Shown here piece by piece: positions 30,094 to 45,077 of a stretch of DNA of 64,000 nt. Source of the stretch: Xanthocytophaga flava (lineage in GTDB: Bacteria > Bacteroidota > Bacteroidia > Cytophagales > 172606-1); NCBI GenBank assembly GCA_030068525.1, contig JASJOS010000008.1, positions 62,001-126,000 of the forward strand. Reading direction: 5' to 3'. Position numbers and translations under genes: made by a program. Below the pieces are notes generated by a model. It searched no databases. It was not told the DNA's origin and saw nothing but the letters and a program-made list of their open reading frames with translations. Numbering within the stretch: position 1 is the stretch's first letter; each line of letters starts with the position of its first letter.

Positions 30094-30159
30094 TAAATAC
30101 CTGTTTTGGTAATTGCGTATTTATCCTCTTTTATACATAAATCCGAAGTATGAACTTTG
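30094..30159 (+). promoter_or_regulatory. Palindrome-promoter P1
   Basis: TAAATAC (30094-30100), 16 nt, GTATTTA (30117-30123), then exactly 32 nt to TTTG (30156-30159) in GAACTTTG. CCTCTTTT just after the palindrome sits where a -33 box belongs. It faces a stretch with no convincing gene but with a strong terminator, so it probably drives a non-coding RNA. Confidence 0.65.
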
Positions 30160-30163
30160 TAGA

Positions 30164-30348
30164 GTCCTTACTAAGAGTAGGTAAGGAAACAGTACTGGTT
30201 TATAATCTATTACACAGATTTGTAGAATGGGCAGAAAGAGAGATAAATAGCCAGATACACAAACATTTCATAAAGGACATAAGGTTTATGTATATATCAG
30301 CATAAATGGGTTTACGAAAAAGCCTCTCTGATTCAGAGGGGCTTTTTT
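30164..30348 (+). ncRNA. Candidate small RNA (unit 1)
   Basis: Inferred transcript of about 185 nt from promoter P1 to the terminator at 30317. It opens with a small hairpin (TCCTTAC/GTAAGGA, 30166-30188) and ends in the strong terminator. A 51-codon frame begins at ATG 30150, but that ATG is upstream of the predicted start site, so translation from it is unlikely. No homology is known to me. Confidence 0.4.
30317..30348 (+). terminator. Strong intrinsic terminator of unit 1
   Basis: AAAAAGCCTCTCTG/CAGAGGGGCTTTTTT stem with a 3-nt ATT loop and a six-T tail. The loop region CTGATTCAG recurs in the terminator at 38467. Confidence 0.85.
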
Positions 30349-30431
30349 ATCTGTTTCTGATTACAGGGAGAGTAATTGGATACTTCCTATATCCCGGACA
30401 AAAACGTAAACACACTTACATAGAATAGGAA

Positions 30432-30800
30432 ATGAAATTATTCAGATGGCAGATAAAAATTCAGAGTGTTTATATTTTGATAACAGCCTTATGGCCATTG
30501 ATAGATATAGAAACTTTTATGATGATAACCGGATATAAAACAGATATCTGGCTGGTAAAAACAGTAGGGGCTCTGCTTATACCTGTTTCGTTAACACTGG
30601 GAAGCTTTTTGTTTGTCCATACAGATGCCAGGCCTGCATTCCTGCTTGGGGCATTGACAGCCCTGGCATTTATCTCTGTGGACTTCTATTATTCTCTTAC
30701 AGATGTAATCTCCAATATCTATATGCTAGATGGTGCAATAGAGATTCTCTTTTTGCTGATCTGGATATATCTGAGTACCCAGACTAACAAAAGTAGCTAA
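30432..30800 (+). CDS. Small four-helix membrane protein
   Basis: A 122-residue integral membrane protein with helices at about 9-27, 42-62, 68-86 and 97-116. It begins MKLFRWQIKIQSVYILITALWPLI. No charged catalytic residues stand out and I recognise no family with certainty; similar short proteins in Bacteroidota are annotated only as membrane proteins. It starts 84 nt after the terminator of unit 1 and converges with the next operon. Confidence 0.65.
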   Translation: MKLFRWQIKIQSVYILITALWPLIDIETFMMITGYKTDIWLVKTVGALLIPVSLTLGSFLFVHTDARPAFLLGALTALAFISVDFYYSLTDVISNIYMLDGAIEILFLLIWIYLSTQTNKSS

Positions 30801-30838
30801 CATACTTTCTCCAATAGAAACTATACATTTAGAGCAAG

Positions 30839-31348
30839 TTACAGCCAGTTAGTCTTTTTCTTCTTTCTTGTTAGCTGGTATAGTAAACCGGCTGCAACTG
30901 TTGTAACTAAGACTCCTGTAACAACTTTTTGAATAGCACCCTTTTTGTTGTATTTGAGTTCCGCATTCCAGCCACGTTCTGCAAATATATTCGGAATATG
31001 GCCATGTAGCAGATCCGAGGCAATACCTTCCCACACATTGATACGGTCTGCCAGTATCAGTGATAGCCAGTGACCCCAGTTGCCCTCACTATATGTAAAG
31101 GCATGCCGACGAATAAGGCCACTCAAACCTGATGGAGGAGACGATGTACCAAAAACAGAAGTCAGACCAGGACGTTCATTGGAATGTAGTATCTCCACTT
31201 TGCTTGGCTGCTGTGGCGGTTTGGCATACGAAAGGCGTTGGTGGTCATCACCTGTATACTTCTTAATTGGATAGGTTGGTTCATTTTCCGGATCAGCATC
31301 TATTCCCCATCCCTTGATATGGGAATAGTCTTCAGGTTTTTTTTTCAT
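30839..31348 (-). CDS. Conserved hypothetical protein with C-terminal anchor
   Basis: A 169-residue protein. The first 75 residues are polar and Pro-rich (PEDYSHIKGWGIDADPENEPTY), followed by an amphipathic helical part (HAFTYSEGNWGHWLSLILAD). One membrane helix near the C-terminus (about 143-160, VVTGVLVTTVAAGLLYQL) is followed by a lysine-rich end, which suggests a tail-anchored inner-membrane protein. It lies 24 nt downstream of the alcohol dehydrogenase, so the two form an operon. I assign no function. Confidence 0.7.
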   Translation of the reverse strand: MKKKPEDYSHIKGWGIDADPENEPTYPIKKYTGDDHQRLSYAKPPQQPSKVEILHSNERPGLTSVFGTSSPPSGLSGLIRRHAFTYSEGNWGHWLSLILADRINVWEGIASDLLHGHIPNIFAERGWNAELKYNKKGAIQKVVTGVLVTTVAAGLLYQLTRKKKKTNWL

Positions 31349-31372
31349 GATAGCTCAGGTTTATGGTTAATG

Positions 31373-32530
31373 TTAGGCTCTTGCAGAAGGAGGTATAAGT
31401 ATTGTCTTGATACAGTTGTCAAGCTTGCGGGAAAAAATATGATAGGCATCTGATACTTCTTCCAACGGTACACGATGGGTGATAATTTCTTTCGGATTGA
31501 GTCGTCCGGCACGTATATGTTCAATAAGCTTTGGTAACAGCCGTTTCACAGAGGCCTGATTGGCCCGGATGGTAATACCTTTGTTGACCACATTGCCAAT
31601 CGGAATCAAATTACCTGTAGGACCATATACACCCACAATAGAAACAATCCCTCCTTTCTTAACAGAGTTAATAGCCCAATGCAGAGCTGTTGCAGAACCG
31701 GCCTGTAGCAGTGTTTTTCTGCCTGTAATGGTTTGAAGTGTACTACCTGCTGCTTCACAGCCTACCGCATCAATACATACATCCGCACCAAAATAATCCG
31801 TTGTCTTTTTCAAAAATAGTACTGGATCAGATAATGAACGGAAGTTATAGGCTTCACATTGAGCAAATCTTTGGGCAAATTCCAATCGATACTCCAGCTG
31901 ATCAATGATAATCACCCGACCTGCTCCGAAAAGCCATGAACATTTTGCTGCCATAATGCCAACAGGTCCGGCTCCGAAGACTACCACTGTATCCCCCTCT
32001 TTAATACCACCCATCTCTGCAGCCTGATAACCCGTTGGAACTACATCTGTAAGCAGGACAGCATCATCCAGGTCCAGATCCGGAGGAATTACCATTGGAC
32101 CTACATCCGCAAATGGAACACGTACATATTCTGCCTGTCCGCCATCAAAGCCACCAGCTGTATGAGAATACCCAAAAATACCACCTACTGCAGTAGCTTC
32201 CGGATTGGACTCATGGCAGTTTCCATATAATTCCTGTTTACAGAAAGGACATACACCACAGGCAATATTAAAGGGTACCAATACATGATCTCCGACCTTC
32301 AGGTTTTTGATGGAGGAACCGACTTCGACGACTTCTCCTGTAAATTCATGGCCAAAGGTTGTTCCTACACGGGTATCTGGCACAAGACCATGGTATAAAT
32401 GCAGATCAGAACCGCATATACAAGACCGGGTAACCCGAACGATTGCATCTTCAGGATGCTCAATGACGGGATCAGGTTTGTTGCGGTCAGCACGGACCCG
32501 AAAAGGGCCCCGAAAATTCATAGCAATCAT
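31373..32530 (-). CDS. Zinc-dependent alcohol dehydrogenase family protein
   Basis: A 385-residue medium-chain dehydrogenase. The catalytic zinc site shows Cys in RSCICGSDLHLYHG and the GHEFTGEVVEVG motif. The structural zinc lobe is CGVCPFCKQELYGNCHESN. The nucleotide loop is VVFGAGPVGIMAAK, and an acidic residue after the next strand (VIIIDQLEYR) favours NAD. The closest known types are glutathione-dependent formaldehyde dehydrogenase-like enzymes. A start at MNFRGPF, three residues in, is equally good. It leads an operon with the anchored protein downstream. A palindrome of the 30-45 kb family lies 333 nt upstream in the same direction. Confidence 0.93.
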   Translation of the reverse strand: MIAMNFRGPFRVRADRNKPDPVIEHPEDAIVRVTRSCICGSDLHLYHGLVPDTRVGTTFGHEFTGEVVEVGSSIKNLKVGDHVLVPFNIACGVCPFCKQELYGNCHESNPEATAVGGIFGYSHTAGGFDGGQAEYVRVPFADVGPMVIPPDLDLDDAVLLTDVVPTGYQAAEMGGIKEGDTVVVFGAGPVGIMAAKCSWLFGAGRVIIIDQLEYRLEFAQRFAQCEAYNFRSLSDPVLFLKKTTDYFGADVCIDAVGCEAAGSTLQTITGRKTLLQAGSATALHWAINSVKKGGIVSIVGVYGPTGNLIPIGNVVNKGITIRANQASVKRLLPKLIEHIRAGRLNPKEIITHRVPLEEVSDAYHIFSRKLDNCIKTILIPPSARA

Positions 32531-32862
32531 AGGAAGTAACTAGTTGAGGTGTATAAATGAATAAACTACAGTATTACAGCCTGTTAACGAATTGGTTATA
32601 AGCTTTTAGGCTGCTTTAACTTTCGCATTAAGGCGATAAAAAATGTACCTTTCTCAGATAATTTTTTGAGAAATTCTCCTTTGCCTCAATTAGAAAGACT
32701 TTAACAAATAAGAAAATAGCTTGTATTCTGTTTTCGTTAGGTTAAATAATTACTTCTACAGGTAGATAAAGCCTGTATAGGATGAGCTAGGTCATATGGG
32801 CTCTCGTTATAGACCAAAGGGAGTCTATACTCTCAAGTTGTCTATGTTAGGATGATATGTGC

Positions 32863-32892
32863 TAAATACTCAATTTTAAAAACAAGTATTTC
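32863..32892 (-). repeat. Palindrome copy 7
   Basis: The same 30-bp layout (TAAATAC, 16 nt, GTATTTC as read on the plus strand). The asymmetric core TTGTTTTTAAAATTGA matches the family in the minus orientation, pointing to the alcohol dehydrogenase operon. No TTTG occurs 32 nt away, so its promoter role is doubtful. Confidence 0.5.
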
Positions 32893-33024
32893 TATCAGTA
32901 AGTTACGTATTAATTCCAGACCTGGGATTTATAAAGATGGGGAACAGGTGGGAGGTTTATCTACAGAAGAAGGTCGTGGTGTATAAAATCTGGTATATAA
33001 AAAAGAGGATCTTGCGAAAGAGAG

Positions 33025-33047
33025 GCAATTCATAGAGATAGAATTGC
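33025..33047 (-). terminator. Weak stem-loop after the RES gene
   Basis: GCAATTC/GAATTGC, 7 bp with a 9-nt loop, just downstream of the RES-protein stop. The following CTCTCTTTC is only partly T-rich. Confidence 0.35.
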
Positions 33048-33051
33048 AGTT

Positions 33052-34359
33052 TTATGAAAGTTGGTTTTCCAAAAATACCAGATAATTTTGTGTGTAGATG
33101 AGTTCAAGCTTACCAGCATAGGTATTCAAATAAAGACCACCATTAATTTTCATATCTTTATAGAGTTCCAAGCGTTGAGAAATGTCTGCAAGGGTTCTTC
33201 TCAGATACGCACTTCTGATAGTGTCTGGTCTATCAGATAGTTGCTGTTCAATATGATGGATCTTATGGTGTATTTTTTCCTCCAAAACTACCTTATCAGA
33301 CAGACCAAAACCTTTCTGATCTTTTACAGTAATCTCAAACATATCAAGAAGATTTTCATCATAAAGAGAATCTTCCTTGTAGGTAGTAAACCATACCAGA
33401 TTGTCCTTGAAACGTAAGTTGGGAAAAGGCATAGAATATGTTATCTTTTGTTCGGAAAAGCTGGTAGACGAGAATATAATACCGTCATATTGGTGCATAC
33501 GCAACACTTCTGTAAATAGCTGGGGAATGACATATTCTTCACAGAAGGCACTACCATTCTCCCTTCTGGGAAAGGTACATACATGAGATAAGATTAATTT
33601 GCGAAAGCAACCTGTCAAATCTGAAATCAATGCCTTTTTTTGTTTCATTGGTGGTTTAGGGTTTGAATCTGTAAGAAAGGCAATCTGCTCATTGACTCCG
33701 TTAAAAAGTAAATTGGTAATGTTAAATAGCTTGGGTTGTCTGGAATGGATTTGATTCAAATCCATAGGATGGAAAGCAAAGGATGCTACATAGGGTTCAT
33801 GTGTGTTTAGATCTCCCTGATTAAACTCAAAATAGATGTCGGCAATACTGGCTCCCAGATATAAGAAAGGAATTCCGGAAAAGCTAAAACGCTGATTCTT
33901 TACTTTGTGTCGTGTGTTGTAAGGTATATGATAAAACTTTTTCTTACCTGTACCTTTTAGGTCAGTACCTCGGAAAAACAGGCTTAGATTCAAGATATCT
34001 TCTTCAAATAACAAATTGTATCGTTCCAGAAGGTCCTGATATTTGAGAGTCGATAGAAAGTGTTTTCCGCGTAGAAATAGGAAATAACCGTCAATGACTT
34101 CCTCAAAAATCTGTTTTGCCACCGGCTCTTCTTTCTGGATGGTTTCACACACCAGTGTAAGCCACTCATTCACAGATTGGTTTTTTCGCAGAGAGCTGGG
34201 CAGATAATGAGTAGGAGAGTCAGGTTTACATTGTCGTAAATGTTGAAAAAATTGTGTCTTGTATTCTTTTATAACATGCTCAAACCGATCATAGCCTTTT
34301 CGGGCTTTTTGTTTGAGCTGATAGTGAAATTCATCAGTGATAAAATCATAGACATGCAT
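33052..34359 (-). CDS. RES-domain protein with helical N-terminal region
   Basis: A 435-residue protein. The central part resembles a RES domain (NAD+ phosphorylase/ADP-ribosyl fold): an Arg in LSLFFRGTD, then RFSFSGIPFLYLGASIADIYFE (given here in two parts: RFSFSGIPFLYLG and ASIADIYFE), and later LRMHQYDGIIFSSTS. The first 130 residues are helical and charged, like the N-terminal domains often joined to RES. Classical RES toxins are about 150-230 residues with a neighbouring Xre antitoxin; here neither size nor partner fits, so it may be a defence or housekeeping variant. A palindrome copy lies about 200 nt upstream. Confidence 0.65.
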   Translation of the reverse strand: MHVYDFITDEFHYQLKQKARKGYDRFEHVIKEYKTQFFQHLRQCKPDSPTHYLPSSLRKNQSVNEWLTLVCETIQKEEPVAKQIFEEVIDGYFLFLRGKHFLSTLKYQDLLERYNLLFEEDILNLSLFFRGTDLKGTGKKKFYHIPYNTRHKVKNQRFSFSGIPFLYLGASIADIYFEFNQGDLNTHEPYVASFAFHPMDLNQIHSRQPKLFNITNLLFNGVNEQIAFLTDSNPKPPMKQKKALISDLTGCFRKLILSHVCTFPRRENGSAFCEEYVIPQLFTEVLRMHQYDGIIFSSTSFSEQKITYSMPFPNLRFKDNLVWFTTYKEDSLYDENLLDMFEITVKDQKGFGLSDKVVLEEKIHHKIHHIEQQLSDRPDTIRSAYLRRTLADISQRLELYKDMKINGGLYLNTYAGKLELIYTQNYLVFLENQLS

Positions 34360-34521
34360 AGCGGAAATAGTAAAAAATGATACTGTATTAAATGATACTG
34401 TATTTGAATAAGATGGTAATAGTAATCAGCTATATATATGCAGGTTAAGTCTTTCAATGAACCTGTCTCTAAAAAAACTCGAGCAAGAGTGAGACACGCC
34501 AAATAGATAAAAACTGATTCT

Positions 34522-34590
34522 CAAAGTATATTCTTTCTGTCTATCAGCTTTTGACTACGTTAAATACTCAATTTTAAAAACAGTTATTTA
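34522..34590 (-). promoter_or_regulatory. Palindrome copy 8 with possible -7 box
   Basis: Read on the minus strand: TAAATAA, 16 nt, GTATTTA, then 35 nt to TTTG (34525-34522) in TATACTTTG. The core CTGTTTTTAAAATTGA is nearly identical to copy 7. It points at the RES-domain gene 163 nt further on. The 35-nt spacing differs from the 32 nt of the other copies. Confidence 0.45.
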
Positions 34591-35023
34591 TACTGATTGG
34601 AGTGAAGTGGATGGATTTGTATAGAGTGAGGAAATTTTGTGGAATTGTAGAAGAACTGACTACAAAAGTCTGATATTCTGATAGAACCATATTGAATGCT
34701 GTAAAAGGTCTGAAAGCCCTAAACTTCGGGACCGATGTTGGTAAATAGTGAGTCTTTACAAAAAGGCATTCCGCGTTGGCTCTGTACGTTTCACAGCAGT
34801 ACATTGTCTCTTATCAAACTACAACACCTCAGTCCTTGAGCAGACTACGAAATATACGAGATTCTTGAATGTGAGGCAGAGTACAACAAGGATATAGATT
34901 CTGATGACTGGAAAATTAGATAAGAAAAGCATTCACTATCGAAAAACTCATTTCTAGGCTTTATTTGATAGTGACTTTCTCCTTTTAAGGGATTTGAAGT
35001 CATTAGTAACTTCTGTTGAGTGA
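34591..35023. other. Intergenic region, no supported gene
   Basis: Between palindrome copy 8 and the PAS/GAF gene stop. A leftward 76-codon frame (34574-34804) overlaps the palindrome and lacks coding character. I see no terminator or promoter I would defend. Confidence 0.3.
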
Positions 35024-37933
35024 TTAATTTACAGTAACTCTTTCGATTGCCGTCCAGATACGTGTCGCAGCTTCTTCCAGCAAGGATATTTCTTCCGATG
35101 AAAAGGTATGTGCTTTTTGATAATGAACAAAGAGAACAGAGATTAAACGTTGATCTTTCACCTGAGGAATACCTATGGTTGCACCTACCTGTGATACTTC
35201 ATATGCCTTTTTCTCTGACTCTGTCAAATAAGGATCATTGGCAACATCATTTCGTACTACAATACGTCCTTCATGAAAAGCTCTTAGTAACTCTGTCCCG
35301 TAATCATTGTATTGGTGGATTCCCTCAATACCTGATACCCCCTGAATATAATTACACGTAATGACAGAGGTAGCGTTATCTCCACGGTCCTCAGCATAAC
35401 CTACCCGATTGGCTCCCAGATATTCCCCTACCAGACGTGCTGCCTGATAGTGTATTTCCTTCGGATCATCTAACGTTCGTAGCAGATCAGTGAGCCGAAG
35501 TAAGAAGGCTTGTTTCTCCTGGCTTTGGTGCAATAGTTGTTCTGTTTGTTTGCGTCGAGTGATATTCCGAAACAACACAGCTACTTTATCACTTTCATTA
35601 ATAGCAAAGGCATTTACTTCATACCAACCACCGATAAGTGCCTGCGCCTGTTCTTCAAACTGAACAGGGTTTCGGGTTTTGGCGACTTCTCCATAAATCT
35701 GAAACCAATGTGATTCATGATTAGGCTCAATCTCTTTCATGGTTTTGCCTACCGCATCTTTGATTCCTGTATGTTTCTCGAAGGCAGGATTCACTTCCAG
35801 AAAACGATAGTCAACAGGCTCATCAGCCTCGTTCCAGATCAGTTCAATGATACAGAAACCATCACTGATAGAATTAAAAAGGGAATAGTATTTATCCTGC
35901 ATCTGTTGAGTCTGAGTTTCATGGATTTGGCTTAGCTCCAGTTCCGATTTCTTACGTTCTGTAATGTCTTCCGAACTAGTTACAAGTCCATCACCCAGTT
36001 TTACACTTACCAGCCTGAACCAACATTCAAAACCCTGATAGGTATAGTATACTTCAAAATCATCAGATATATCTTGTTCTATTACCTTGATATATCTGTC
36101 GAAGATACCTGCTTCTTTAATTCCAGGATATTCCTCTGCATACCGTTTACCTGTTAGTTCTCGATTTCCTGCGTATTCTTTCGCTTTTTTATTTGCATAA
36201 CTCCATTCAAAGTCAATAATCTCTCCCAGTTCATCTCGGATTGTTTTAAAAACAGAAATACCTGACAGAGAAACATTAAATATAGACTCTAGTAATTCCT
36301 GACTTTCAGTAATCTGACTTTCAGACTGCTTCTCTTCAGTGATATTCTGTATCAAGTTAATATATTGCAAGGGCGCTCCCGATTCACTCCTTTTAAATAC
36401 TTTAGCCCTGATTCTGCGCCATTCAAGAGTGCCATCTTTGTGTTGGACTCTGTAATCCACCCTTCGGACCACATCCGTAAGGGTAGCCGGCATCTCATCC
36501 AGTAGTTGCCAGAGTAAACGCCGATCTTCCGGATGGACAATCTTCGTAATCCAGCGCCAGTCAGTCATCTCGTTTAGCTCCTGGTCGGAATAGCCAAAAC
36601 GGGTAAATTGTTTCCGGTTTATGTATACAATTTGTTCTTGTTCAAGATCATAAATACTAATGGTACCTGGTATAGCTTCTGTTATCTGCCGGATAAAATT
36701 AGCCTGTTCATCAATTTCAGTCTGGGCTTTCTTCTGTTCAGTTACATCCTGAGCCATTCCCAAAATCTTAATCGGATTGCCTTTGTCGTCACAGATTACT
36801 TTACCCCGGCTAAAAATATAATGCATTTCTCCGGTAGGCCAGTAAACTCGTCGCAGATATTGATAAGGCTGTTTGGTTTCTATTGCCTTTGTAATAATCT
36901 GAAGGACCTCAATCGCATCCTCTGGATTCGAAATAGAATCAATAAAGTCCAATGTCGGGGTAAATTCATGTGGTTCATAGCCCAGCAGTCGGAACATGCC
37001 ATCTGAAAAGTGAAAAGATTGTAAAGGGAGTTCACCTTCATAACTTCCCAGCCCTGCAGCCTGTTCGGCTTGTTTCATCAGAGAGTCACTGGCTTTTTGC
37101 TTTTCTTCTATTTGTTTCTGTTCAGTAATATCCTGCACTACACCATACATACGATCAATAACTCCTTTTGAATCTATCAGAAACTCCATTCGTCGGCTCA
37201 CAATTCGCACTTTCCCATCTGTTCGAATGATACGATTCGTGATTTCGAAGGAGGTCTTCTGAAGGAGGGCGTCTTGTACGGTTTGATAAAATATTTCCTG
37301 ATCGTCAGGATGTATGAAAGCAACTACTTTATCCAGTGTAATGATTTCACTTTGTGGCTCCAGACCATGAATACGATAAAGTTCATCACTCCAATATAAT
37401 TTTTCTTCACCCAAATGCCGCTCAAAATAACCCATCTTCCCGATTTTCTGAGCAGACTTAAGGCGACGTTGTTCTTCTTTGAGTTGAAGCTGTATATGTT
37501 TCGTTTCTTCAATTTCTGTAGCAAGGACAATTACTCCCGATTGACTAGGTATGGTAGACAATCGTATCCATGTATTCGTAATGGCTGATATATACTCAGA
37601 GGTAGAGATTTCCTGTTGCTTTATAGCTTTGGTAATAGCTATGAAGCAATGGGCTTGAATTGTTTCCGGGAATTCCTCCCAGATACTTTTACCTAACATT
37701 GTATTCTTCGAGCGGGCAAAAAGGATCTCAGCATGTTGATTTATATAGGTAAAACAACTGTTTTGGTCAAGTTCAAAACAGGCAACAGGTATCTTATTGA
37801 GAATTCGTTCCGCTTGCCACAAACGGGGTAAATCTGAGTCGTTATCAGATGAAAGTGTGTCTGCTCGCATAGACAAGAGAGGGAAAGATAGTTCTTCACA
37901 AATTTCAACACTGGAAATAACAAATAGAGACAA
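35024..37933 (-). CDS. Multi-PAS/GAF sensory protein without kinase domain
   Basis: A 969-residue soluble protein with about six PAS/PAC units (about residues 40-150, 155-275, 285-405, 410-535, 545-665, 675-795; PAC ends such as GVVQDITEQK, GMAQDVTEQK, SSEDITERKK). A GAF domain at about 810-965 has HYQAARLVGEYLGANRVGYAE and HYQKAHTFSSEEISLLEEAATR. In relatives a GAF like this is followed by a HisKA/HATPase module. Here the frame stops at the end of the GAF, and no kinase remnant is seen downstream. It may be a sensory scaffold or partner for a separate kinase. It is divergent from palindrome-promoter P2. Confidence 0.88.
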   Translation of the reverse strand: MSLFVISSVEICEELSFPLLSMRADTLSSDNDSDLPRLWQAERILNKIPVACFELDQNSCFTYINQHAEILFARSKNTMLGKSIWEEFPETIQAHCFIAITKAIKQQEISTSEYISAITNTWIRLSTIPSQSGVIVLATEIEETKHIQLQLKEEQRRLKSAQKIGKMGYFERHLGEEKLYWSDELYRIHGLEPQSEIITLDKVVAFIHPDDQEIFYQTVQDALLQKTSFEITNRIIRTDGKVRIVSRRMEFLIDSKGVIDRMYGVVQDITEQKQIEEKQKASDSLMKQAEQAAGLGSYEGELPLQSFHFSDGMFRLLGYEPHEFTPTLDFIDSISNPEDAIEVLQIITKAIETKQPYQYLRRVYWPTGEMHYIFSRGKVICDDKGNPIKILGMAQDVTEQKKAQTEIDEQANFIRQITEAIPGTISIYDLEQEQIVYINRKQFTRFGYSDQELNEMTDWRWITKIVHPEDRRLLWQLLDEMPATLTDVVRRVDYRVQHKDGTLEWRRIRAKVFKRSESGAPLQYINLIQNITEEKQSESQITESQELLESIFNVSLSGISVFKTIRDELGEIIDFEWSYANKKAKEYAGNRELTGKRYAEEYPGIKEAGIFDRYIKVIEQDISDDFEVYYTYQGFECWFRLVSVKLGDGLVTSSEDITERKKSELELSQIHETQTQQMQDKYYSLFNSISDGFCIIELIWNEADEPVDYRFLEVNPAFEKHTGIKDAVGKTMKEIEPNHESHWFQIYGEVAKTRNPVQFEEQAQALIGGWYEVNAFAINESDKVAVLFRNITRRKQTEQLLHQSQEKQAFLLRLTDLLRTLDDPKEIHYQAARLVGEYLGANRVGYAEDRGDNATSVITCNYIQGVSGIEGIHQYNDYGTELLRAFHEGRIVVRNDVANDPYLTESEKKAYEVSQVGATIGIPQVKDQRLISVLFVHYQKAHTFSSEEISLLEEAATRIWTAIERVTVN

Positions 37934-38071
37934 TCAGCATTGTATGGAATGTATAGATACTGTATTATTCTTACCAAGAAAGAACTGTCAGTTATACACA
38001 ATGTAAGCATATATTTTCGCAAAATTGTGCCAACTCAGGAAAACTTATTTCGCTATTATTCTCATATGTGA

Positions 38072-38137
38072 TAAATACTTGTTTTGACAAATGCGTATTT
38101 ACCCTCTTTTATAGATTTATACTAATCTCCAACTTTG
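38072..38137 (+). promoter_or_regulatory. Palindrome-promoter P2
   Basis: TAAATAC (38072-38078), 16 nt, GTATTTA (38095-38101), exactly 32 nt, TTTG (38134-38137) in CAACTTTG. CCTCTTTT follows the palindrome as in P1 and P3. It lies 139 nt from the divergent PAS/GAF gene start. Confidence 0.68.
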
Positions 38138-38308
38138 CAGTGTGTTGATTATCAGGATATACTTCTATTTACTACAGTAGAGACTATATAAAAATAGAAT
38201 GCGACGTTGAATACAAAATGCTTTATGCATACAGAATGGTTTACTGCAATCATCAGTTGAAATGTTATCAACTGGTTAGTTTAAATAGATTGTGGTAAAT
38301 GGAAAAAA

Positions 38309-38383
38309 TTTCAGGGGTAAACGATTCGTACCCTAAGGATGACTTAGCTGTAACTACCACTTATAACCTGTTTATCCCTGAAA
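38309..38383 (+). other. Conserved long-stem hairpin, copy in unit 2
   Basis: The 14-nt arms TTTCAGGGGTAAAC and GTTTATCCCTGAAA pair with one G-T wobble. An inner stem CTAAG/CTTAG (38333-38347) is followed by TAACTACCACTTATAACCT. The 32-nt 3' segment (38351-38382) differs at only 3 positions from 45019-45050. Confidence 0.6.
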
Positions 38384-38466
38384 CATCTTACTTAGCTGTC
38401 AGGAGTATCTTGAAACAGTAGATACTAGCCTATAAAGTAATTACTGATTATGCAGCCAAAGTTGAG

Positions 38467-38496
38467 AAAAGCCTTCCTGATTCAGAAAGGTTTTTT
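38467..38496 (+). terminator. Intrinsic terminator of unit 2
   Basis: AAAAGCCTT..CTGATTCAG..AAAGG then six Ts. It closely resembles the unit 1 terminator, including the CTGATTCAG apex. Confidence 0.75.
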
Positions 38497-39529
38497 CTGT
38501 TCGCTACTGAAAATCGTACAAAGTTGGATGCAATACATCCAGCATACATAGTTTTCCGAATTAATGAATTGTTTATACACAAATCAGTCAATAAATTTAT
38601 CAGAGTGCAGCTGGAAATCGTAAATAAACAGCCCCACAGATACAGCTTATCTGTCAGTTGACAAAGCTTCAGAAATTAAAACGGAGCTGAGCTGGTAAAA
38701 TTATTACAGGAAAACCAATACAAAAAGTCCCGACAAACTTAATTTATCTTACTGAAAGAATAATGAAAGGGACAATAAGCCAACATAGGAAGAGAAATTT
38801 ATCTAAAAATAAGTATCGCCTATGCTCTTAGTTTATACTCTTTTGAAAGCACCTACGTCAGTTTTGTAAAATTATCTCCCATTCAAAGCTTGGGAATATC
38901 TCGGCTTAGATATCACTACTCGAAGATACCTACCAAATAGTCTGTTAAGGGACTGGTATGACTGAAAGAGTAACTAGCCACTCTCTGCTATTAGTGTGAC
39001 GAGTAAAGCCGCCAACCTCTTTACAATTTACAACTTCTTTTACCCTATGCAGAGAAGTTGTGGCTGGATGAACAATGGTGGAATGACTTTCATCAGTTGC
39101 TGCATACACTGGCTACAGGTGAAAAAGTTTACTATTGATTGACTCTGCTAATACTCCCATATCAGTATGTACAGAGACGAAGACAGACTCCACTTCATGA
39201 CACGGACCTTTGTAGTAGAATAAGCAGGCGAACAGGAATAGTTTTTTACGCAATCTATGTCTGATCAGGAGTAAATGTTTTTGGTTAAGTGAGTTATCCT
39301 GAAAGAATCTTCCCGACACAAATGTACAGGTGTGACAAATAACGAAGTGCTGGTTGATTGGTTAAATGATACTATAATCAAGGAGTGACTGACTTGTAAT
39401 AGAATCATTTAGGAAATCATAAAATCAGATAAAATACATGAGTAATAGAACAAAGGGAAAAGTATCCTGGAATGCCAGCATGGTACATTGACCTGATGGT
39501 ACGAAATAACAGTTATATAGTAAGGCACC
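38497..39529. other. One-kilobase region without intact genes
   Basis: No intact gene is supported. An inverted pair (TACCAAATAGTC/GACTGGTA) is near 38929-38958. At 39052-39221 short, protein-like stretches in two frames (EKLWLDEQWWNDFHQLLHTL, then RDEDRLHFMTRTFVVE) are broken by stops, possibly a decayed gene. The leader of the DUF421 gene occupies the right end. Confidence 0.35.
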
Positions 39530-40318
39530 ATGAAAAAAGAAGACATTCATTTAGGAGATTGGCAACGAATTTTGTTAGGGGATGCTCCTGCTATTTTTCT
39601 ATTAGAGGTATTTCTGCGAACAATCTTTATTTTTTTGTTTTTGCTGGTAATAACTCGTCTTCTTGGAAAAAGAATGAATGCACAGTTGAGTCTCACAGAA
39701 ATGTCTGTGATGATTACACTTGGTGCTATTGTTTCAGCTCCAATGCAAGATCCGATACGTGGTCTCCTACCAGGTGTTGTGATTCTTCTCTGTGTGCTTG
39801 TTGTACTAAGGGGGCTTAACCTACTTTCGTATAAATACCGAAAGATAGAGTTACTCGTACAGGGAGATGTACGCCTATTAGTAAAAGATGGCATCTTACA
39901 ACTTGATCAGATCCGTCAGGAAGGTTTTGAACGCGAGCAGATCTTTGCTCATCTCCGTTCAGAAAATATTATACATTTAGGTCAAATAGCACGAGTATAT
40001 CTGGAAGCATGTGGTACGTTGAGTATCTATAAAAGTGTATCTCCTAAACCTGGGTTATCCGTTTTGCCCTCCAACGATCGGATCTTAGTAAACCGACAGG
40101 CAAAGACACATTCACATCTGGCTTGCGCCAGTTGTGGTTATGTGGTAACGTCAGCAGTACACAGTGTCAAGGCATTGTGCCCTAATTGCCAGTCGATTGC
40201 CTGGACAGAAGCTTTTATAAAAGACACCACTATTCAGAATAAAAATCCTCATTCTGGTCCAACGGATCCGGAACTGACAAAAGATGATCAGAAGAATATT
40301 TCTTCCTATACACATTAA
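39530..40318 (+). CDS. DUF421 (YetF-like) membrane protein with C-terminal zinc ribbon
   Basis: A 262-residue protein. Three membrane helices (about 20-38, 58-75, 80-98) include the family signature RLLGKRMNAQLSLTEMSVMI. The soluble alpha/beta domain that follows (about 105-180) contains VQGDVRLLVKDGILQLDQIR and the family's REQIFAHLR region. A C-terminal extension carries two CxxC knuckles, CASCGY and CPNCQS, a probable zinc ribbon. Bacillus YetF/YdfS homologues have roles in spore or envelope functions; the role here is unknown. Its leader lies in a long non-coding stretch; palindrome-promoter P3 follows its stop. Confidence 0.9.
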   Translation: MKKEDIHLGDWQRILLGDAPAIFLLEVFLRTIFIFLFLLVITRLLGKRMNAQLSLTEMSVMITLGAIVSAPMQDPIRGLLPGVVILLCVLVVLRGLNLLSYKYRKIELLVQGDVRLLVKDGILQLDQIRQEGFEREQIFAHLRSENIIHLGQIARVYLEACGTLSIYKSVSPKPGLSVLPSNDRILVNRQAKTHSHLACASCGYVVTSAVHSVKALCPNCQSIAWTEAFIKDTTIQNKNPHSGPTDPELTKDDQKNISSYTH

Positions 40319-40343
40319 TAGACCAGAAGCAAAGGGATTGTGG

Positions 40344-40409
40344 TAAATACCTGTTTTGACAAATGCGTATTTACCCTCTTTTTTCACTGAAACTTTTCTG
40401 CGAACTTCG
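40344..40409 (+). promoter_or_regulatory. Palindrome-promoter P3
   Basis: TAAATAC (40344-40350), 16 nt, GTATTTA (40367-40373), exactly 32 nt, TTCG (40406-40409) in GAACTTCG, one base off the -7 consensus. The palindrome core CTGTTTTGACAAATGC is identical to P2 except its first base. Confidence 0.62.
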
Positions 40410-40532
40410 TTTCGCATTATTGACAAGGTACTATACAGGTAAGATCTGGAATATGTGTGCTTACTAGTACAATCCAGCAAGAAACCGGTTATTATCGTTA
40501 GAGGCGAACATATAGAATAATAGAAGGTAAAT

Positions 40533-40607
40533 CTTAGGGGTAAACAGTGATTTTTTGTAAGATAAAGATTAATATATATAAACCACTTACCCTGGTTTAT
40601 CCCTAAG
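40533..40607 (+). other. Conserved long-stem hairpin, copy in unit 3
   Basis: The 13-nt arms CTTAGGGGTAAAC (40533-40545) and GTTTATCCCTAAG (40595-40607) pair with one G-T wobble. The 3' side carries AAACCACTTACCCTG, matching the ACCACTTA core of the other two hairpins. It lies in the leader of the 28-residue peptide gene. Confidence 0.55.
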
Positions 40608-40629
40608 GTTTATTTTAAGAAGCAATTTT

Positions 40630-40716
40630 ATGTTAGTTATAAGATTTCTTTTACTTATCCTCGTTATCTTATTCATAGGCTACAAAATTTTCTCTGTGTC
40701 AGAGAGCTTTTTGTAG
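40630..40716 (+). CDS. Small hydrophobic peptide, type I toxin-like
   Basis: A 28-codon frame starting MLVIRFLLLILVILFIGYKI and ending SVSESFL. It has a single strongly hydrophobic helix with one Arg near the N-terminus and a Lys/Ser end, the general shape of type I toxin peptides and of small membrane regulators. The start lies 22 nt after the long-stem hairpin with an AAGAAG purine run before it. The stop codon falls inside the terminator stem. No antisense RNA has been shown. It may be by chance, but the frame sits in a promoter-hairpin-terminator unit with no other product. Confidence 0.4.
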   Translation: MLVIRFLLLILVILFIGYKIFSVSESFL

Positions 40717-40721
40717 CCTAT
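40675..40721. terminator. Bidirectional terminator between unit 3 and the NarL regulator
   Basis: The outer stem ATAGGCTACAAAA/TTTTGTAGCCTAT (13 bp) encloses an inner stem TCTCTG/CAGAGA. T-rich ACTTTTATAT follows on the plus strand. It serves the rightward unit 3 and the leftward regulator gene. Confidence 0.75.
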
Positions 40722-40740
40722 ACTTTTATATAGTAACTAA

Positions 40741-41478
40741 TCAGTCCAGTAAATGATGGGAGGAGGCAAAATGAATCAGCATAGCCGTATTGTTGCAGCC
40801 GGTTTTAGCAAGCAGGCTTTGACGATGATTCTCAATGGTTCTTTTGCTGGTGAAGAGCAGATCTGCGATTTTGGCATTTGTATAACCTTTAGCTACCAAT
40901 TGAAGAATCTCCATTTCTCTCTTGGATAATCCTATTCCTTCTGACTGCCCGGTGTGTGCTGCGTCTGCTCTGGGACCTAGCTTTTCTGATTTGGTAACAT
41001 TTTCCATAGAAGTAACAGGCGAGGATACTGAATCTGCATAAGTCACTGGTATTTCACTATGAGAAAGTTTACCCAACAATGACAATGTAATTTGCGCTGT
41101 TACATAACGACTTCCTTTATGTACAATTTCGATAGCATGGATTAGTTCTTCGCGTCCTGCTGATTTGAGAAGATAACCTTGTGCACCAGCTTGAAACACT
41201 TTCGCAATCAGATGCTCATTTTCTACCATAGAAAGAATTAGTACTTTAGTTTCGGGGTGGTTTCTGGCTATATAGGTAGTTGTTTCCAGACCATCCATTT
41301 CTGGCATATTCATATCCAGCAGCACTACATCTATTTTTTCTCTCTCCAGTTGTTCCAGAACTTCCTTTCCATTAGAAGCTTCCGCCACCACTTGAATTGA
41401 AGCATCTGAGAATGTGAGCACCGCTTTTAGGCCATCACGGATGATTTTATGGTCGTCGGCTAATAATAGGTTAATCAT
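40741..41478 (-). CDS. NarL/FixJ-family response regulator
   Basis: A 245-residue regulator. Receiver residues: D8-D9 acidic pair, phosphoacceptor D55 in VVLLDMNMPEMDG, and Lys near 105 in YLLKSAG. A linker of about 50 residues rich in Ser/Thr precedes the LuxR helix-turn-helix (about 178-238; LSKREMEILQLVAKGYTNAKI, TIENHRQSLLAK). Its partner is probably a HisKA_3 kinase such as the one at 24142. It is the only receiver with a DNA-binding output in the window, and it is flanked by palindrome-promoters, so it is a candidate regulator of them; this is inference only. Confidence 0.95.
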   Translation of the reverse strand: MINLLLADDHKIIRDGLKAVLTFSDASIQVVAEASNGKEVLEQLEREKIDVVLLDMNMPEMDGLETTTYIARNHPETKVLILSMVENEHLIAKVFQAGAQGYLLKSAGREELIHAIEIVHKGSRYVTAQITLSLLGKLSHSEIPVTYADSVSSPVTSMENVTKSEKLGPRADAAHTGQSEGIGLSKREMEILQLVAKGYTNAKIADLLFTSKRTIENHRQSLLAKTGCNNTAMLIHFASSHHLLD

Positions 41479-41948
41479 AACTTCTTTTGATTGAGTAAGT
41501 GTGGCAAATAAAGTACAATCCTGTTGCCAATCAGAGATAATTTTGAGCTTTTTTACTCATTCTTAACCTTTTTATAAAGGAGTTGATAGCACAAGCTAAT
41601 ATATAAAAAATTATGCCTGTCACTTTTATAAATTTGTGAAATTTCCCCCCAAGAGGCAAAAGAAAAAAAAGATTGGTTTTGAGTTCTTTTTCAGCCTGTT
41701 ACTTGTTGGTATCATTTATCAAAAAGGGTGATAATGGCGTAAAGTTAATTTTCTTCTGCACAGCAGATATACTCAACCCAACTAAAGTTCGGCACAAACT
41801 TTGTGCGAAAGGAGTAATAAGCCAAACCATACATTTTCTGCTAAATTTGCTAACAGGAGAGTACTCAATCTTCCTGACAGGTAGTGCTTTACTTTTTAAG
41901 TGAGTTCTTTCTATCTCCCTTGTAACTCCTTTATCAACTTTTAACTGT
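41479..41948. other. Intergenic region with an imperfect palindrome
   Basis: Divergent spacer between the NarL regulator and a secreted protein. Besides the palindrome at 41788-41809 I see only AT-rich sequence. A 76-codon rightward frame (41673-41903) overlaps it and lacks coding character. Confidence 0.35.
41788..41809 (+). promoter_or_regulatory. Imperfect palindrome upstream of the secreted protein
   Basis: TTCGGCACAAA and TTTGTGCGAA around a central C (one bulged G) form a compact dyad about 140 nt before the ATG at 41949. It could be an operator or a short hairpin. Confidence 0.3.
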
Positions 41949-42707
41949 ATGAAAAGAAAATATTACAGTTTACTCTTAGTGATAGTATTTACAACCTTAC
42001 TCAGTTCTATCCCAAATTTATCTGCTCAAACTGATCAGAAATTTGTGGTTGAACCAGGTCAGATTCCTATCAGGATAATTCCGTTTAACGATCAATATAC
42101 ATTTAGCAATTTTAGACAAGGTACTATCAGCTTTCACAACGGACAGGTAGTGGGAGCCTTACTGAATTACAACCGATTATTTGGAGAAATCCAATTTATC
42201 AATTCAAAGGGTGATACATTATCTTTTGCTCAGGAAAAGCTTATACAACAGATTAATATAGATGATGAACTATTTTATTATGATCCAGAGAATGGATATG
42301 TAAATGTCGCTATAATGTATTTATTTGTCAAACTAGCCGAAAAACAACTATTTACGCTAGAAGGATCAAAAGGTAACAATGGAAGGTTTTCCGGATATTT
42401 TGGTCCCACAATTTATGGTAATCGTGGACATAGTCTTGAAACTTCAGAGGACGGAACTATCGAAGCAAATAAGTTATTCAGGCAAGAAACCAAATATACA
42501 TTAACTTTTCGTAAAAGAATATATTATTATTTTGTTGATCAGAATAATCGTATTCATAAGGCCAGTGTGTATGCTGTACGGAAAATATTTTCCCGATATC
42601 GAAAGGAGATTAACCAATATTTGATTGGTAACCCTATTAACTTCAAAGATCCTCATGATTTACATAAGTTGCTTACATTTTGTACCCAGTTATCAGACCA
42701 AAAATAA
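41949..42707 (+). CDS. Secreted hypothetical protein
   Basis: A 252-residue protein with a clear Sec signal peptide (KRKYYSLLLVIVFTTLLSS..., cleavage after LSA, about residue 26). The mature part is beta-rich and Tyr/Phe-rich (YNRLFGEIQFINSKGDTLSF, FRKRIYYYFVDQNNRIHKAS) and has no Cys lipobox. It is therefore probably periplasmic or surface-associated. Similar proteins of unknown function are common in Cytophagales. It is monocistronic, with the P4 unit about 190 nt further on. No function is assigned. Confidence 0.75.
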   Translation: MKRKYYSLLLVIVFTTLLSSIPNLSAQTDQKFVVEPGQIPIRIIPFNDQYTFSNFRQGTISFHNGQVVGALLNYNRLFGEIQFINSKGDTLSFAQEKLIQQINIDDELFYYDPENGYVNVAIMYLFVKLAEKQLFTLEGSKGNNGRFSGYFGPTIYGNRGHSLETSEDGTIEANKLFRQETKYTLTFRKRIYYYFVDQNNRIHKASVYAVRKIFSRYRKEINQYLIGNPINFKDPHDLHKLLTFCTQLSDQK

Positions 42708-42897
42708 TGGCAACACATGAAAGAACTTTGTGATAAGTAAGCTGTACATAATCCATAAATATATACCTAAATAAAGATTCCTTCATTTATGAGGAAAACC
42801 ATCCGGATTAATAAAAGCAAAGAAACATTGTCATACAAAGCCTTGTCTAACTATTTGATAAAGAATAGATAATTCTGTTGGAAGCCTCTTCTTGCGT

Positions 42898-42963
42898 TAA
42901 ATACATGTTTTGCAAAATAGGTATTTACGCTCTTTCTATATCAATAGATATTGTACAAATTTG
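42898..42963 (+). promoter_or_regulatory. Palindrome-promoter P4
   Basis: TAAATAC (42898-42904), 16 nt, GTATTTA (42921-42927), exactly 32 nt, TTTG (42960-42963). The predicted start site falls just before the ATG at 42975 and rules out a TTG start at 42951 that would lie inside the -7 box. Confidence 0.68.
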
Positions 42964-42974
42964 CTTCTGTCAAT

Positions 42975-43406
42975 ATGGATTTATTCCCTTTAACGCTTAT
43001 GATATCTATTCCAACACAGCAGATTCTACTAATAGAAGACAATGCTGACTACCGCTGGGAGTTGGCTTGTTGTCTGGAGACATCTTTGAGCAATTGCCAG
43101 ATTGTTACCCTTTCTGAAAATGAACAGGCATTAGCCTGGCTTAGTTATGCACCTGTACAGCCTGATCTGATTTTGTGGAGTGTAGATATGATGCTGAAAG
43201 ATAATTTTCAACAGATTATAGCTATCCAGAATAATGACGTGTGTAAATATGTACCCATTGTAGCCTTGGCAGATTATTGCAATGAAGAATGGATACTACG
43301 TTGCTATAGAATGGGAGTGAAAGCCTATGTAGTAAAACCTCACTCAAAAGGAGAATGTCTGGCACTCGAGCGAATTATTGAGTCGTTTCAGCCTATCACT
43401 ACCTAA
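42975..43406 (+). CDS. Pseudo-receiver (response-regulator-like) protein
   Basis: A 143-residue lone receiver fold. The acidic pocket E21-D22 (LLIEDNADY) and the C-terminal Lys (YVVKPHS) are kept. At the phosphoacceptor position the sequence is LILWSVDMML, so Ser69 replaces Asp (unless the alignment slips two residues to Asp71), and the conserved Thr/Ser after strand 4 is Ala (IVALADYC). It is therefore probably not phosphorylated in the normal way and may act as a binding module. The ATG at 42975 or 42999 is the start; an upstream TTG would overlap the -7 box of P4. Confidence 0.75.
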   Translation: MDLFPLTLMISIPTQQILLIEDNADYRWELACCLETSLSNCQIVTLSENEQALAWLSYAPVQPDLILWSVDMMLKDNFQQIIAIQNNDVCKYVPIVALADYCNEEWILRCYRMGVKAYVVKPHSKGECLALERIIESFQPITT

Positions 43407-43505
43407 CCAACTTATGTGTGAGAGTTACTTTCTGATTAAATCAAAAACGGATTATAATTAATCCTGGAAGGTGGCCATTTAGTAATTAGTGTATCAGACT
43501 TGCGT

Positions 43506-43571
43506 TAAATACTTATTTTACAAAATGCGTATTTAATACCTTTTATTCTCTGCAAAGCTTACTAATATTTG
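43506..43571 (+). promoter_or_regulatory. Palindrome-promoter P5
   Basis: TAAATAC (43506-43512), 16 nt, GTATTTA (43529-43535), exactly 32 nt, TTTG (43568-43571). Preceded by TGCGT as in P1 and P4. The coiled-coil gene starts 85 nt after the -7 box. Confidence 0.68.
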
Positions 43572-43656
43572 TAGTTCCCTACCACTCAATTTTGGTAAAC
43601 AGGAGATTAGATGGAAACGTATTCTATTTGTTAATCACTACTAAAACTTTAAAGCT

Positions 43657-43869
43657 ATGGATAGATATTCTCATATTATTCGTGAAAAGATTTATCAGTT
43701 ACAATGTGTCCTATCCTGGCAGGAAGAGCAAATCCGGACGATGGTTGCATCACAAAATAAAAACCGTATAGAATTACAACGAATGCTTGAACTTGAGCGG
43801 TTACAAATGCAGGGAGAATCTATTGACTGGATGTCTTCTTTGGATGCACCTGTTATGAAGTCGGAATAA
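43657..43869 (+). CDS. Small coiled-coil protein (paralogue 1)
   Basis: A 70-residue, mostly helical, charged protein with heptad spacing (YSHIIREKIYQLQCVLSW, then KNRIELQRMLELERLQMQG). It has no signal or membrane helix. It shares the pattern IxxKIxxLxxxI...(R)IELQRxLE and length with the protein at 44803, so the two are paralogues. Both are expressed from a palindrome-promoter of the same family. A likely role is a small adaptor or coiled-coil partner; no family is recognised. A strong terminator follows at 43985. Confidence 0.65.
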   Translation: MDRYSHIIREKIYQLQCVLSWQEEQIRTMVASQNKNRIELQRMLELERLQMQGESIDWMSSLDAPVMKSE

Positions 43870-43984
43870 CCCAATTACTGATTCAAAAGAGCAATAGTAT
43901 ACTTTGTGTATAACCTCTAAATAAATAGTATCTTAAAGGAAATTCATTGTAATCATCTTGCTTATTGTCTATAGATTATGATTG

Positions 43985-44017
43985 AAAAGAAGTAAGCCTT
44001 TGGCTGCTTCTTTTTTT
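43985..44017 (+). terminator. Intrinsic terminator of unit 5
   Basis: GAAG-TA-AGCC and GGCT-G-CTTC with a 3-nt loop, then seven Ts. It closes a unit of about 440 nt beginning at P5. Confidence 0.82.
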
Positions 44018-44088
44018 ATTTTATAGGTATTGTCTTTCAAATTATCCTCTTCTGACTATAGTATAGCTGAGTATATATATTGTTTTGC

Positions 44089-44340
44089 ATGTCTGCTGTC
44101 CAGAAGTCTGGTCATACAGGTTAGTGACTGCAACTATGGTCAGCCAATAAGTTGACTGGTATTCGAATCGTTGTCACATCTGAACAGTGTTCCAGTCACT
44201 CTGAAAAGTGACTATTCTTCTGGTCATTCTCAAAAATGAACAGAATTCGAATATTTCTGAAAAGCGACCAGAACTCCAGTCAAAATAAAAAGTGAACAGA
44301 GTTCTGGTCATTTTGCAAAGTGATTCGATTTCTGTTCATT
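44089..44340. repeat. Nine 28-bp degenerate tandem repeats of palindromic units
   Basis: Nine consecutive units of exactly 28 nt (44089, 44117, 44145, 44173, 44201, 44229, 44257, 44285, 44313). The shared core is close to TGAACAGAATTCTGGTCA, itself an imperfect palindrome, with A-rich CTGAAAAG before it. Units 4-9 are best conserved; weaker matches continue to about 44368. Each unit could form a hairpin or be a dyad protein site. No coding frame runs through it. Confidence 0.85.
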
Positions 44341-44715
44341 TGTCTTGCTAAACAGTTGCCAGATCAATTTATCTTTAAGTAGAAAATTGACCATACATCA
44401 GATATTTCTTCAGAGTAATTGGAGTTACGGTCATTGTACTCATTGACTGTAACTCCAGCCATCTTTTAAAGGGTATAAAGGCAAATAATAGTAAAGTTCT
44501 TGAAGAACTAAAAGGCCTTTGCTATACCATTGTCCATTTTTCGACCTATAGATTTTGCTACATTGCGACTGATTTATAGGCTATAATCTCATCTCGCTAC
44601 AAAATCTGCTCGTTAAGCTTCTTTAAAATAAGGTAGGCTACCACTCAGATGTGTATTGTCACAGGCATAGTACAGGCAATTATGTAATTTGGGTTGATAT
44701 TCAGATTGTTAATGT
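44341..44715. other. Non-coding spacer between repeat array and P6
   Basis: It contains one clear hairpin, GGAGTTACGGTCA/TGACTGTAACTCC at 44420-44455, whose arms echo the array's GGTCA core, but no gene or promoter I can support before P6. Confidence 0.35.
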
Positions 44716-44782
44716 ATAAATACTTATTTTTCAAATTGCGTATTTACGCTCTTTCAGAAATGCTTTCTAATTCTCACCTTTG
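44716..44782 (+). promoter_or_regulatory. Palindrome-promoter P6
   Basis: TAAATAC (44716-44722), 16 nt, GTATTTA (44739-44745), then 33 nt to TTTG (44779-44782), one longer than the other copies. The -7-like CACCTTTG is 20 nt before the ATG at 44803. Confidence 0.62.
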
Positions 44783-44802: not shown

Positions 44803-45009
44803 ATGAACAAAAAAAGTGTATATATACAAAATAAGATTGTTCATTTAAAGACATTGATTGCTGCAAAGTCTGCCAGCATTCATAAACTCAATAAGGAACA
44901 AAACGAAGTGCGTATAGAACTTCAGCGCACGCTTGAGAACAAAACTGAAGATCAGATAAAAGATCAAAATGAGATTCAGGGAGAGACATCCTCATACTTG
45001 CAAGAATAA
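44803..45009 (+). CDS. Small coiled-coil protein (paralogue 2)
   Basis: A 68-residue helical protein (MNKKSVYIQNKIVHLKTLIA, then EVRIELQRTLENKTED), a paralogue of the protein at 43657 with the same size and a shared RIELQRxLE core. There is no signal or membrane helix. Its last 13 codons overlap the 5' arm of the conserved long-stem hairpin, so translation termination and RNA folding could be linked. It is expressed from P6 with a very short leader. Function unknown. Confidence 0.65.
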   Translation: MNKKSVYIQNKIVHLKTLIAAKSASIHKLNKEQNEVRIELQRTLENKTEDQIKDQNEIQGETSSYLQE

Positions 45010-45054
45010 CTTTGCCTATAACTACCACTTACAACCTATTTCTCCCTGAATCTC
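44971..45054 (+). other. Conserved long-stem hairpin, copy in unit 6
   Basis: The perfect 14-bp arms GAGATTCAGGGAGA (44971-44984) and TCTCCCTGAATCTC (45041-45054). The inner GCAA/TTGC stem and the segment TAACTACCACTTACAACCT match unit 2 closely. The 5' arm is inside the coiled-coil gene and the stop codon is in the loop region. Confidence 0.65.
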
Positions 45055-45077
45055 TATATATAAACCGGCAAGTAAAG

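Follow-up and report, generated by a model that had tools for sequence, protein, structure and literature searches.

A palindrome at a fixed distance from a promoter box

Does a palindrome that recurs between 30 and 45 kb of a 64,000-nt stretch of the Xanthocytophaga flava genome (assembly GCA_030068525.1, contig JASJOS010000008.1, positions 62,001 to 126,000; called the window below) mark the promoters of a regulon, and if so, which protein would work it? Six exact rightward copies of TAAATAC-N16-GTATTTA were found in the window, at 30094, 38072, 40344, 42898, 43506, and 44717, whereas 64-kb first-order Markov sequences (150 generated) contain 0.007 on average. An initial annotation of this DNA had reported all six, the last at 44716, with 32 nt between the palindrome and TTTG or TTCG in five copies and 33 nt in one. 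Because the last dyad starts at 44717, all six spacings are 32 nt, and the 33-nt case was a one-base slip. The described conservation of the N16 core holds among the six sites, and, as also claimed, no exact or one-mismatch copy lies in the window outside 30-45 kb. CTCTTT, which had been placed just 3' of every palindrome, is present in five of the six copies and is replaced by ACCTTTT at 43506. The -7 tetramer is TTCG at 40344 and TTTG at the other five sites.

Each element on the plus strand consists of a dyad, a -33 region, and a -7 box, in that order: 30094-30159 (dyad 30094-30123; CTCTTTT 30126-30132; GAACTTTG 30152-30159), which is conserved in a congeneric genome (G001); 38072-38137 (dyad 38072-38101; -33 region 38104-38110; CAACTTTG 38130-38137); 40344-40409 (dyad 40344-40373; -33 region 40376-40382; GAACTTCG 40402-40409); 42898-42963 (dyad 42898-42927; CTCTTTC 42930-42936; CAAATTTG 42956-42963); 43506-43571 (dyad 43506-43535; ACCTTTT 43538-43544; AATATTTG 43564-43571); and 44717-44782 (dyad 44717-44746; CTCTTTC 44749-44755; CACCTTTG 44775-44782). 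Two leftward near-copies, 32863-32892(-) and 34561-34590(-), had gone unreported; each has one mismatch, the same core, and no -7 box at the fixed place, the second having a TTTG 3 nt further out.

Sites across the genome

We searched the window's own assembly (G000; 9.49 Mb) for the site consensus, allowing up to 3 mismatches, and obtained 17 forward and 19 reverse matches, numbers in which one palindromic site may be counted once per strand; the reversed pattern gave 0 and 1. After merging, and with one misplaced row (L026 10734) left out, the working set comprised 23 sites. Eight of these are in the window and eight form a second cluster on contig C44 (229-256 kb); the others are C44:262468, C44:410007, C62:142550, and one each on C5, C12, C33, and C8. 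The composite search described below added a 24th site, C44:234734(-), which no count on the 23 includes. The matches on five other contigs, and the one at C62:142550, 16.5 kb beyond the window end, rule out the local-only regulon that had been proposed.

All 23 sites lie outside open reading frames of at least 90 aa (greedy gene set). Counted from the dyad start, offset 63 carries TTTG in 13 of the 46 flanks (mean per offset, 0.49) and offset 35 carries CTTT in 15 of 46 (mean, 0.82). With TTCG included, the -7 box occupies a single exact offset at 14 of the 23 sites and reads nAnnTTYG at all 14; at two sites, CTCTTTT is paired with TTTA instead of a -7 box. The outcome that had been named as fatal to the idea, copies at random genome-wide positions with no constant distance, was thus not seen.

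The symmetry of the dyad extends outward to TTGYG...CRCAA at many sites elsewhere in the genome, most fully where no promoter abuts the dyad; at promoter-bearing sites, the CTCTTTT box replaces the right outer arm. C62:142550 (L029 8551) and C44:255910 (L027 12411) have the full outer dyad, no abutting promoter, and a common downstream GGCATTATTTTATA stretch, and sites of this type are perhaps a second promoter class. At C44:229234 (L026 5235), CTCTTYT-type boxes lie on both sides of the dyad, so that the site faces two ways, towards a coding gene in one direction and towards a hairpin-bearing RNA with a terminator at its end in the other.

Conservation of the dyad and the boxes

In G001, the consensus gave 19 and 23 matches compared to control values of 0 and 0. 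A third genome of the genus, 72% complete, contained no consensus matches. In 15 ortholog pairs between G000 and G001, ungapped identity was 0.97 and 1.00 for the arms, 0.94 for the core, 0.93 for CTCTTTT, and 0.98 for TTTG, compared to 0.72 for the upstream flank and 0.66 and 0.62 for the downstream flanks. The 15 aligned sites all have the A of the -7 box, but only 1 has its first T; the G of TTTG occurs in 13. A composite pattern of dyad, -33 region, and -7 box at fixed spacing was searched in 390 genomes of the order, and gave 17 matches in G000 and 18 in G001, with controls at 0. Together with the TTTG enrichment, this conservation upholds the claim that the dyad stands at a fixed distance from a Bacteroidota-type -7 box.

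These data also bear on the idea of a mobile or repetitive element whose palindromic copies lie upstream of genes only by accident. The copies do cluster in two regions with paralogous genes, which implies that some may have been duplicated together with their genes. However, flanks between copies are mostly unrelated, the sites keep outside open reading frames at a constant distance to the -7 box, and dyad and boxes are conserved between the species while flanks diverge, so that we consider this explanation very improbable.

Flavobacterial start-site mapping, in the available part of PMC9723704, puts TAnnTTTG at -12 to -5. On that frame, the dyad centre falls at about -55.5, the proximal arm ends at about -41, and CTCTTTT covers the -33 region. 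Sequence and geometry thus support an operator plus a promoter as the identity of the repeated element, and we infer from its place relative to the promoter that the dyad occupies an activator position. Alternatively, the dyad could be a repressor operator, from which a stress-released repressor would free the promoters. Promoter-adjacent dyads can serve either way, and the outer right arm comes close to the -33 region; however, the dyad centre and proximal arm lie beside rather than over the -33 and -7 boxes, and the nearly general lack of the first T of the -7 box is as in a promoter that needs help. Repression accordingly seems improbable to us. An ECF sigma factor gene in the window (45719-46351; Pfam) was set aside as the promoter reader, as the -7 box is of housekeeping type.

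Small RNAs and a shared hairpin

Some of the sites had been said to lead to apparent non-coding RNAs. This description fits the DNA after 30094 and 40344 but only in part that after 38072, where a hairpin is followed by a decayed small coiled-coil-type gene (38463-39010; tblastn 6e-8, with stops), whose intact counterparts lie at C44 and in G001. The 30094 promoter is predicted to produce a small RNA of ~180 nt (30164-30347(+), start estimated) that ends in an intrinsic terminator hairpin near 30316-30347 and has no open reading frame of 15 or more codons wholly inside before the terminator. Its last 113 nt are 95.6% identical in G001. In the stretch after 40344, the only frame in common with G001 is a 19-codon GTG frame that lies inside a hairpin.

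That hairpin belongs to a family with a conserved 3' loop stretch near ACCACTTAYMACCTG, whose members lie 182-280 nt downstream of regulon sites. They are 38303-38388(+) (covariance model E 3.8e-18); 40526-40613(+), inside the predicted 40344 small RNA (E 1.3e-13; 96.5% identical over 85 nt in G001); 44969-45056(+), overlapping the 3' end of a 68-aa gene (E 2.3e-13); and a covariance-model match behind the C44:229234 site (L026 4899-4984(-)). With 150 first-look candidates scored per genome, the model gave four strong matches each in G000 and G001 (E 9.2e-13 or better), the next being at E 0.09 to 0.18, and no match at E <= 1 in four other genomes of the family. Because inspection by eye of the DNA near sites had revealed three copies and a profile search of site-neighbouring loci the fourth, it is the lack of strong copies elsewhere that counts as an independent result. 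Four paralogs from each of the two species (8 sequences) show two-sided changes in 3 of the 13 stem pairs. Two of the sequences have several broken pairs, and covariation contributes a small term (-0.23), so that the structure rests mainly on the long stem of each copy. Rfam returned nothing at gathering score for 25-50 kb of the window, and the predicted hairpin is a new RNA family.

Genes behind the sites and a stressosome operon

The gene content points to stress. One target group on contig C44 consists of a manganese catalase gene, a small coiled-coil-like gene, and a paralog of the window gene 30432-30800(+), which encodes a 122-aa hydrophobic protein (71% DNA identity over 301 nt; no Pfam or NCBIfam match for the 122-aa protein). 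Further targets are a DUF4142 gene and a GSDH gene with an SDR gene behind it, and Pfam names a DUF421 gene beside C62:142550 and a MacB/FtsX-type permease gene on C12. The site on C8 precedes genes for RsbRD_N-STAS, STAS, HATPase, HATPase-SpoIIE, and PAS-HisKA-HATPase proteins, an operon that, by its predicted domains, is an RsbR-RsbS-RsbT-type stressosome module ending in a histidine kinase. The arms of this site are perfect and the -7 box is present, but the core diverges, with 3 mismatches to the consensus; in G001, the corresponding site has kept arms, box, and place with changed flanks. Since the targets are defence enzymes plus the stressosome operon, the genome-wide regulon is probably general-stress-like.

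In the window, the leftward dyad at 32863 lies 333 nt before a zinc alcohol dehydrogenase-like gene (31373-32530(-); Pfam ADH_N, ADH_zinc_N), and that at 34561 precedes a 435-aa gene with no assigned family (33052-34359(-)). The 42898 site is followed by the gene of a receiver-like protein (42999-43406(+), alternative ATG 42975; Pfam Response_reg 1.9e-08), in which the phospho-acceptor Asp seems, by eye, to be replaced. Behind 43506 and 44717 lie genes for a small coiled-coil-like protein of 70 aa (43657-43869(+); no Pfam match) and a 68-aa protein of the same kind (44803-45009(+)). Five such proteins of one kind were found behind sites and aligned with one from G001; the kind was assigned by alignment alone, and "coiled-coil-like" denotes likeness rather than a coiled-coil prediction. 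A repetitive stretch before the 44717 site (44132-44358) has ~70% identity to a piece of G001 contig C20.

A candidate regulator and its rivals

Which protein would bind the dyad? The cluster in both species contains a NarL/LuxR-type response regulator (40741-41478(-); 96% identical between G000 and G001) with a receiver domain (Pfam Response_reg 1.1e-30), in which D8, D9, D55, and K105 are invariant in 8 homologs, and a C-terminal GerE helix-turn-helix (2.9e-16). Of 172 G000 candidates, 150 were scored, and none of these besides the regulator reaches E 1e-30. In G006 and G007, from another genus of the family, the sole composite match with 0 mismatches lies 291 and 161 bp, respectively, from a homolog of this regulator and points away from it; G007 has an additional 2-mismatch match elsewhere, plus control matches. 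A homolog in G227, which belongs to another family, has a 2-mismatch site at a distance of 153 bp. In G003, the homolog has no site upstream and is near genes for CheB (60% identical to window 28924-29934), a CheR-like protein, and a 39% relative of a C44-cluster protein. In a search of the genome contigs with a profile from the regulator alignment, the best among the matches listed had 43% identity (Pedobacter). From this sequence evidence, we take response regulator 40741-41478(-) to be the likely binder of the dyad, with moderate confidence.

On balance, we favour a reading in which each repeat combines the operator and promoter of a stress-type regulon that spans the genome and is worked by a NarL/LuxR-type regulator as activator. 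The regulator would bind the dyad and help the housekeeping polymerase at a promoter recognised through the CTCTTTT -33 region and the nAnnTTTG -7 box. Phosphorylation would turn it on, a plausible source being the kinase encoded in the stressosome operon, itself a regulon member, and the outputs would be defence enzymes, small coiled-coil-like proteins, signalling proteins, and small RNAs with one shared hairpin. Regulator identity, activation over repression, phosphorylation route, and stress signal are all read from the arrangement of sites and genes. The longer chain, from stressosome through histidine kinase and NarL-type regulator to a long dyad at housekeeping promoters, replacing SigB and with hairpin-sharing small RNAs added, we put forward only tentatively.

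Several observations weigh against this scheme. The abutting promoter is missing at 7 of the 23 sites, identity is likewise fairly high in the spacer that separates the -33 and -7 boxes (0.88 in the 15 pairs), and the strict motif is at background level in other genomes of the family. There is no good site upstream of the window regulator's own gene, nor any in 15 of 18 homolog upstream regions (best scores below 0), a test that was not blind because its three positives were known beforehand. The site-bearing regulators do not form a clade, and G006 and G007 are of the same genus, so that their sites perhaps reflect one event. In G118, G206, and G135, a different histidine kinase-response regulator lineage also has similar sites within 3 kb, which weakens the assignment to one protein and may reflect a preference common to LuxR-type regulators. 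Finally, NarL heptamers are arranged as inverted 7-2-7 repeats, with 2 bp between the halves. The half-sites here are 8 bp apart in a much longer dyad, unlike a NarL-type operator, although the candidate shares receiver and GerE domains with NarL/FixJ (LuxR-type) regulators, the half-sites are likewise inverted and start with TAC, and TACYTRT/TACKCAT resemble the heptamer TACYYMT given in the available part of PMC4886647.

The same regulon and geometry could instead be served by another binder, an AraC-type protein or a different LuxR-type regulator. In addition to the siteless regulator promoters and the sites beside another lineage, the fully extended dyad spans 42-44 bp, which would suit an AraC-type protein, and the C44 cluster contains an AraC-like gene (named by eye). 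The perfect composite sites beside homologs in G006 and G007 and the NarL/LuxR-type regulator inside the cluster in both species argue against another binder, which we regard as rather unlikely.

Matches outside the genus

Order-wide matches outside the genus mostly look like chance, because the reversed control also matches in many genomes. Among the matches listed, 12 composite matches with at most 1 mismatch lie outside the genus, 5 with a LuxR-type regulator within 3 kb (G006, G007, G118, G206, and G135) and 7 without; dyad symmetry in G118 is poor (14/26). The 2-mismatch and palindrome-only rows of this neighbourhood comparison were chosen by eye and are not a count. In G005, a dyad lies upstream of a GSDH gene 64% identical to the GSDH target in G000, which we count in favour of the regulon scheme.

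In other families of the order, similar dyads (L171, L179, L184, L187, and L190) lie beside a four-part operon for a small protein, a membrane protein, a HisKA_3-like kinase, and a LuxR-type regulator (names by eye; L190 regulator by Pfam). These dyad-linked HisKA_3/LuxR operons are perhaps a separate regulon with a related operator.

Comparison with known systems

In the open literature, subscription papers being outside the scope, we found neither a described regulon behind a Bacteroidetes RSTX module nor this motif. Likewise, the available parts of publications on Bacteroidota general-stress regulation and on RST modules with kinases held nothing that we recognised as the present system. 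With a defined operator at a fixed place relative to the promoter, some two dozen sites, and one protein as the leading candidate for the regulator, the system's output is testable, and the linked RNA hairpin family may add a post-transcriptional arm.

As in Bacteroidota sigma-A promoters, described in the accessible portion of PMC9723704 with a TAnnTTTG -7 box, nAnnTTTG has a constant position, and a -33 region precedes its TTTG by 23 nt. In contrast to those promoters, almost every copy here lacks the T of TA, and the operator is followed immediately by CTCTTTT as the -33 region. The SigB/RsbRST general stress response of Bacillus shares with the present system the RsbR, RsbS, and RsbT genes and a regulon with catalase and defence-type content. 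However, the C8 operon, to which this comparison is confined, is without SigB, RsbU, RsbV, and RsbW; a histidine kinase follows instead, and the targets carry an operator and a housekeeping-type promoter. RSTX modules without SigB do occur in Bacteroidetes, often followed by two-component proteins, according to the part of PMC9237108 available to us. In the Gram-negative modules treated there, such as that of Vibrio vulnificus, RsbR-RsbS-RsbT-phosphatase is followed by a two-component kinase, as in the C8 operon. The phosphatase in that account has a single domain, whereas the fourth gene of the C8 operon joins SpoIIE (PP2C) to an N-terminal HATPase. Moreover, no operator or regulon is described in that part of PMC9237108, whereas the operon here is preceded by the regulon's own site.

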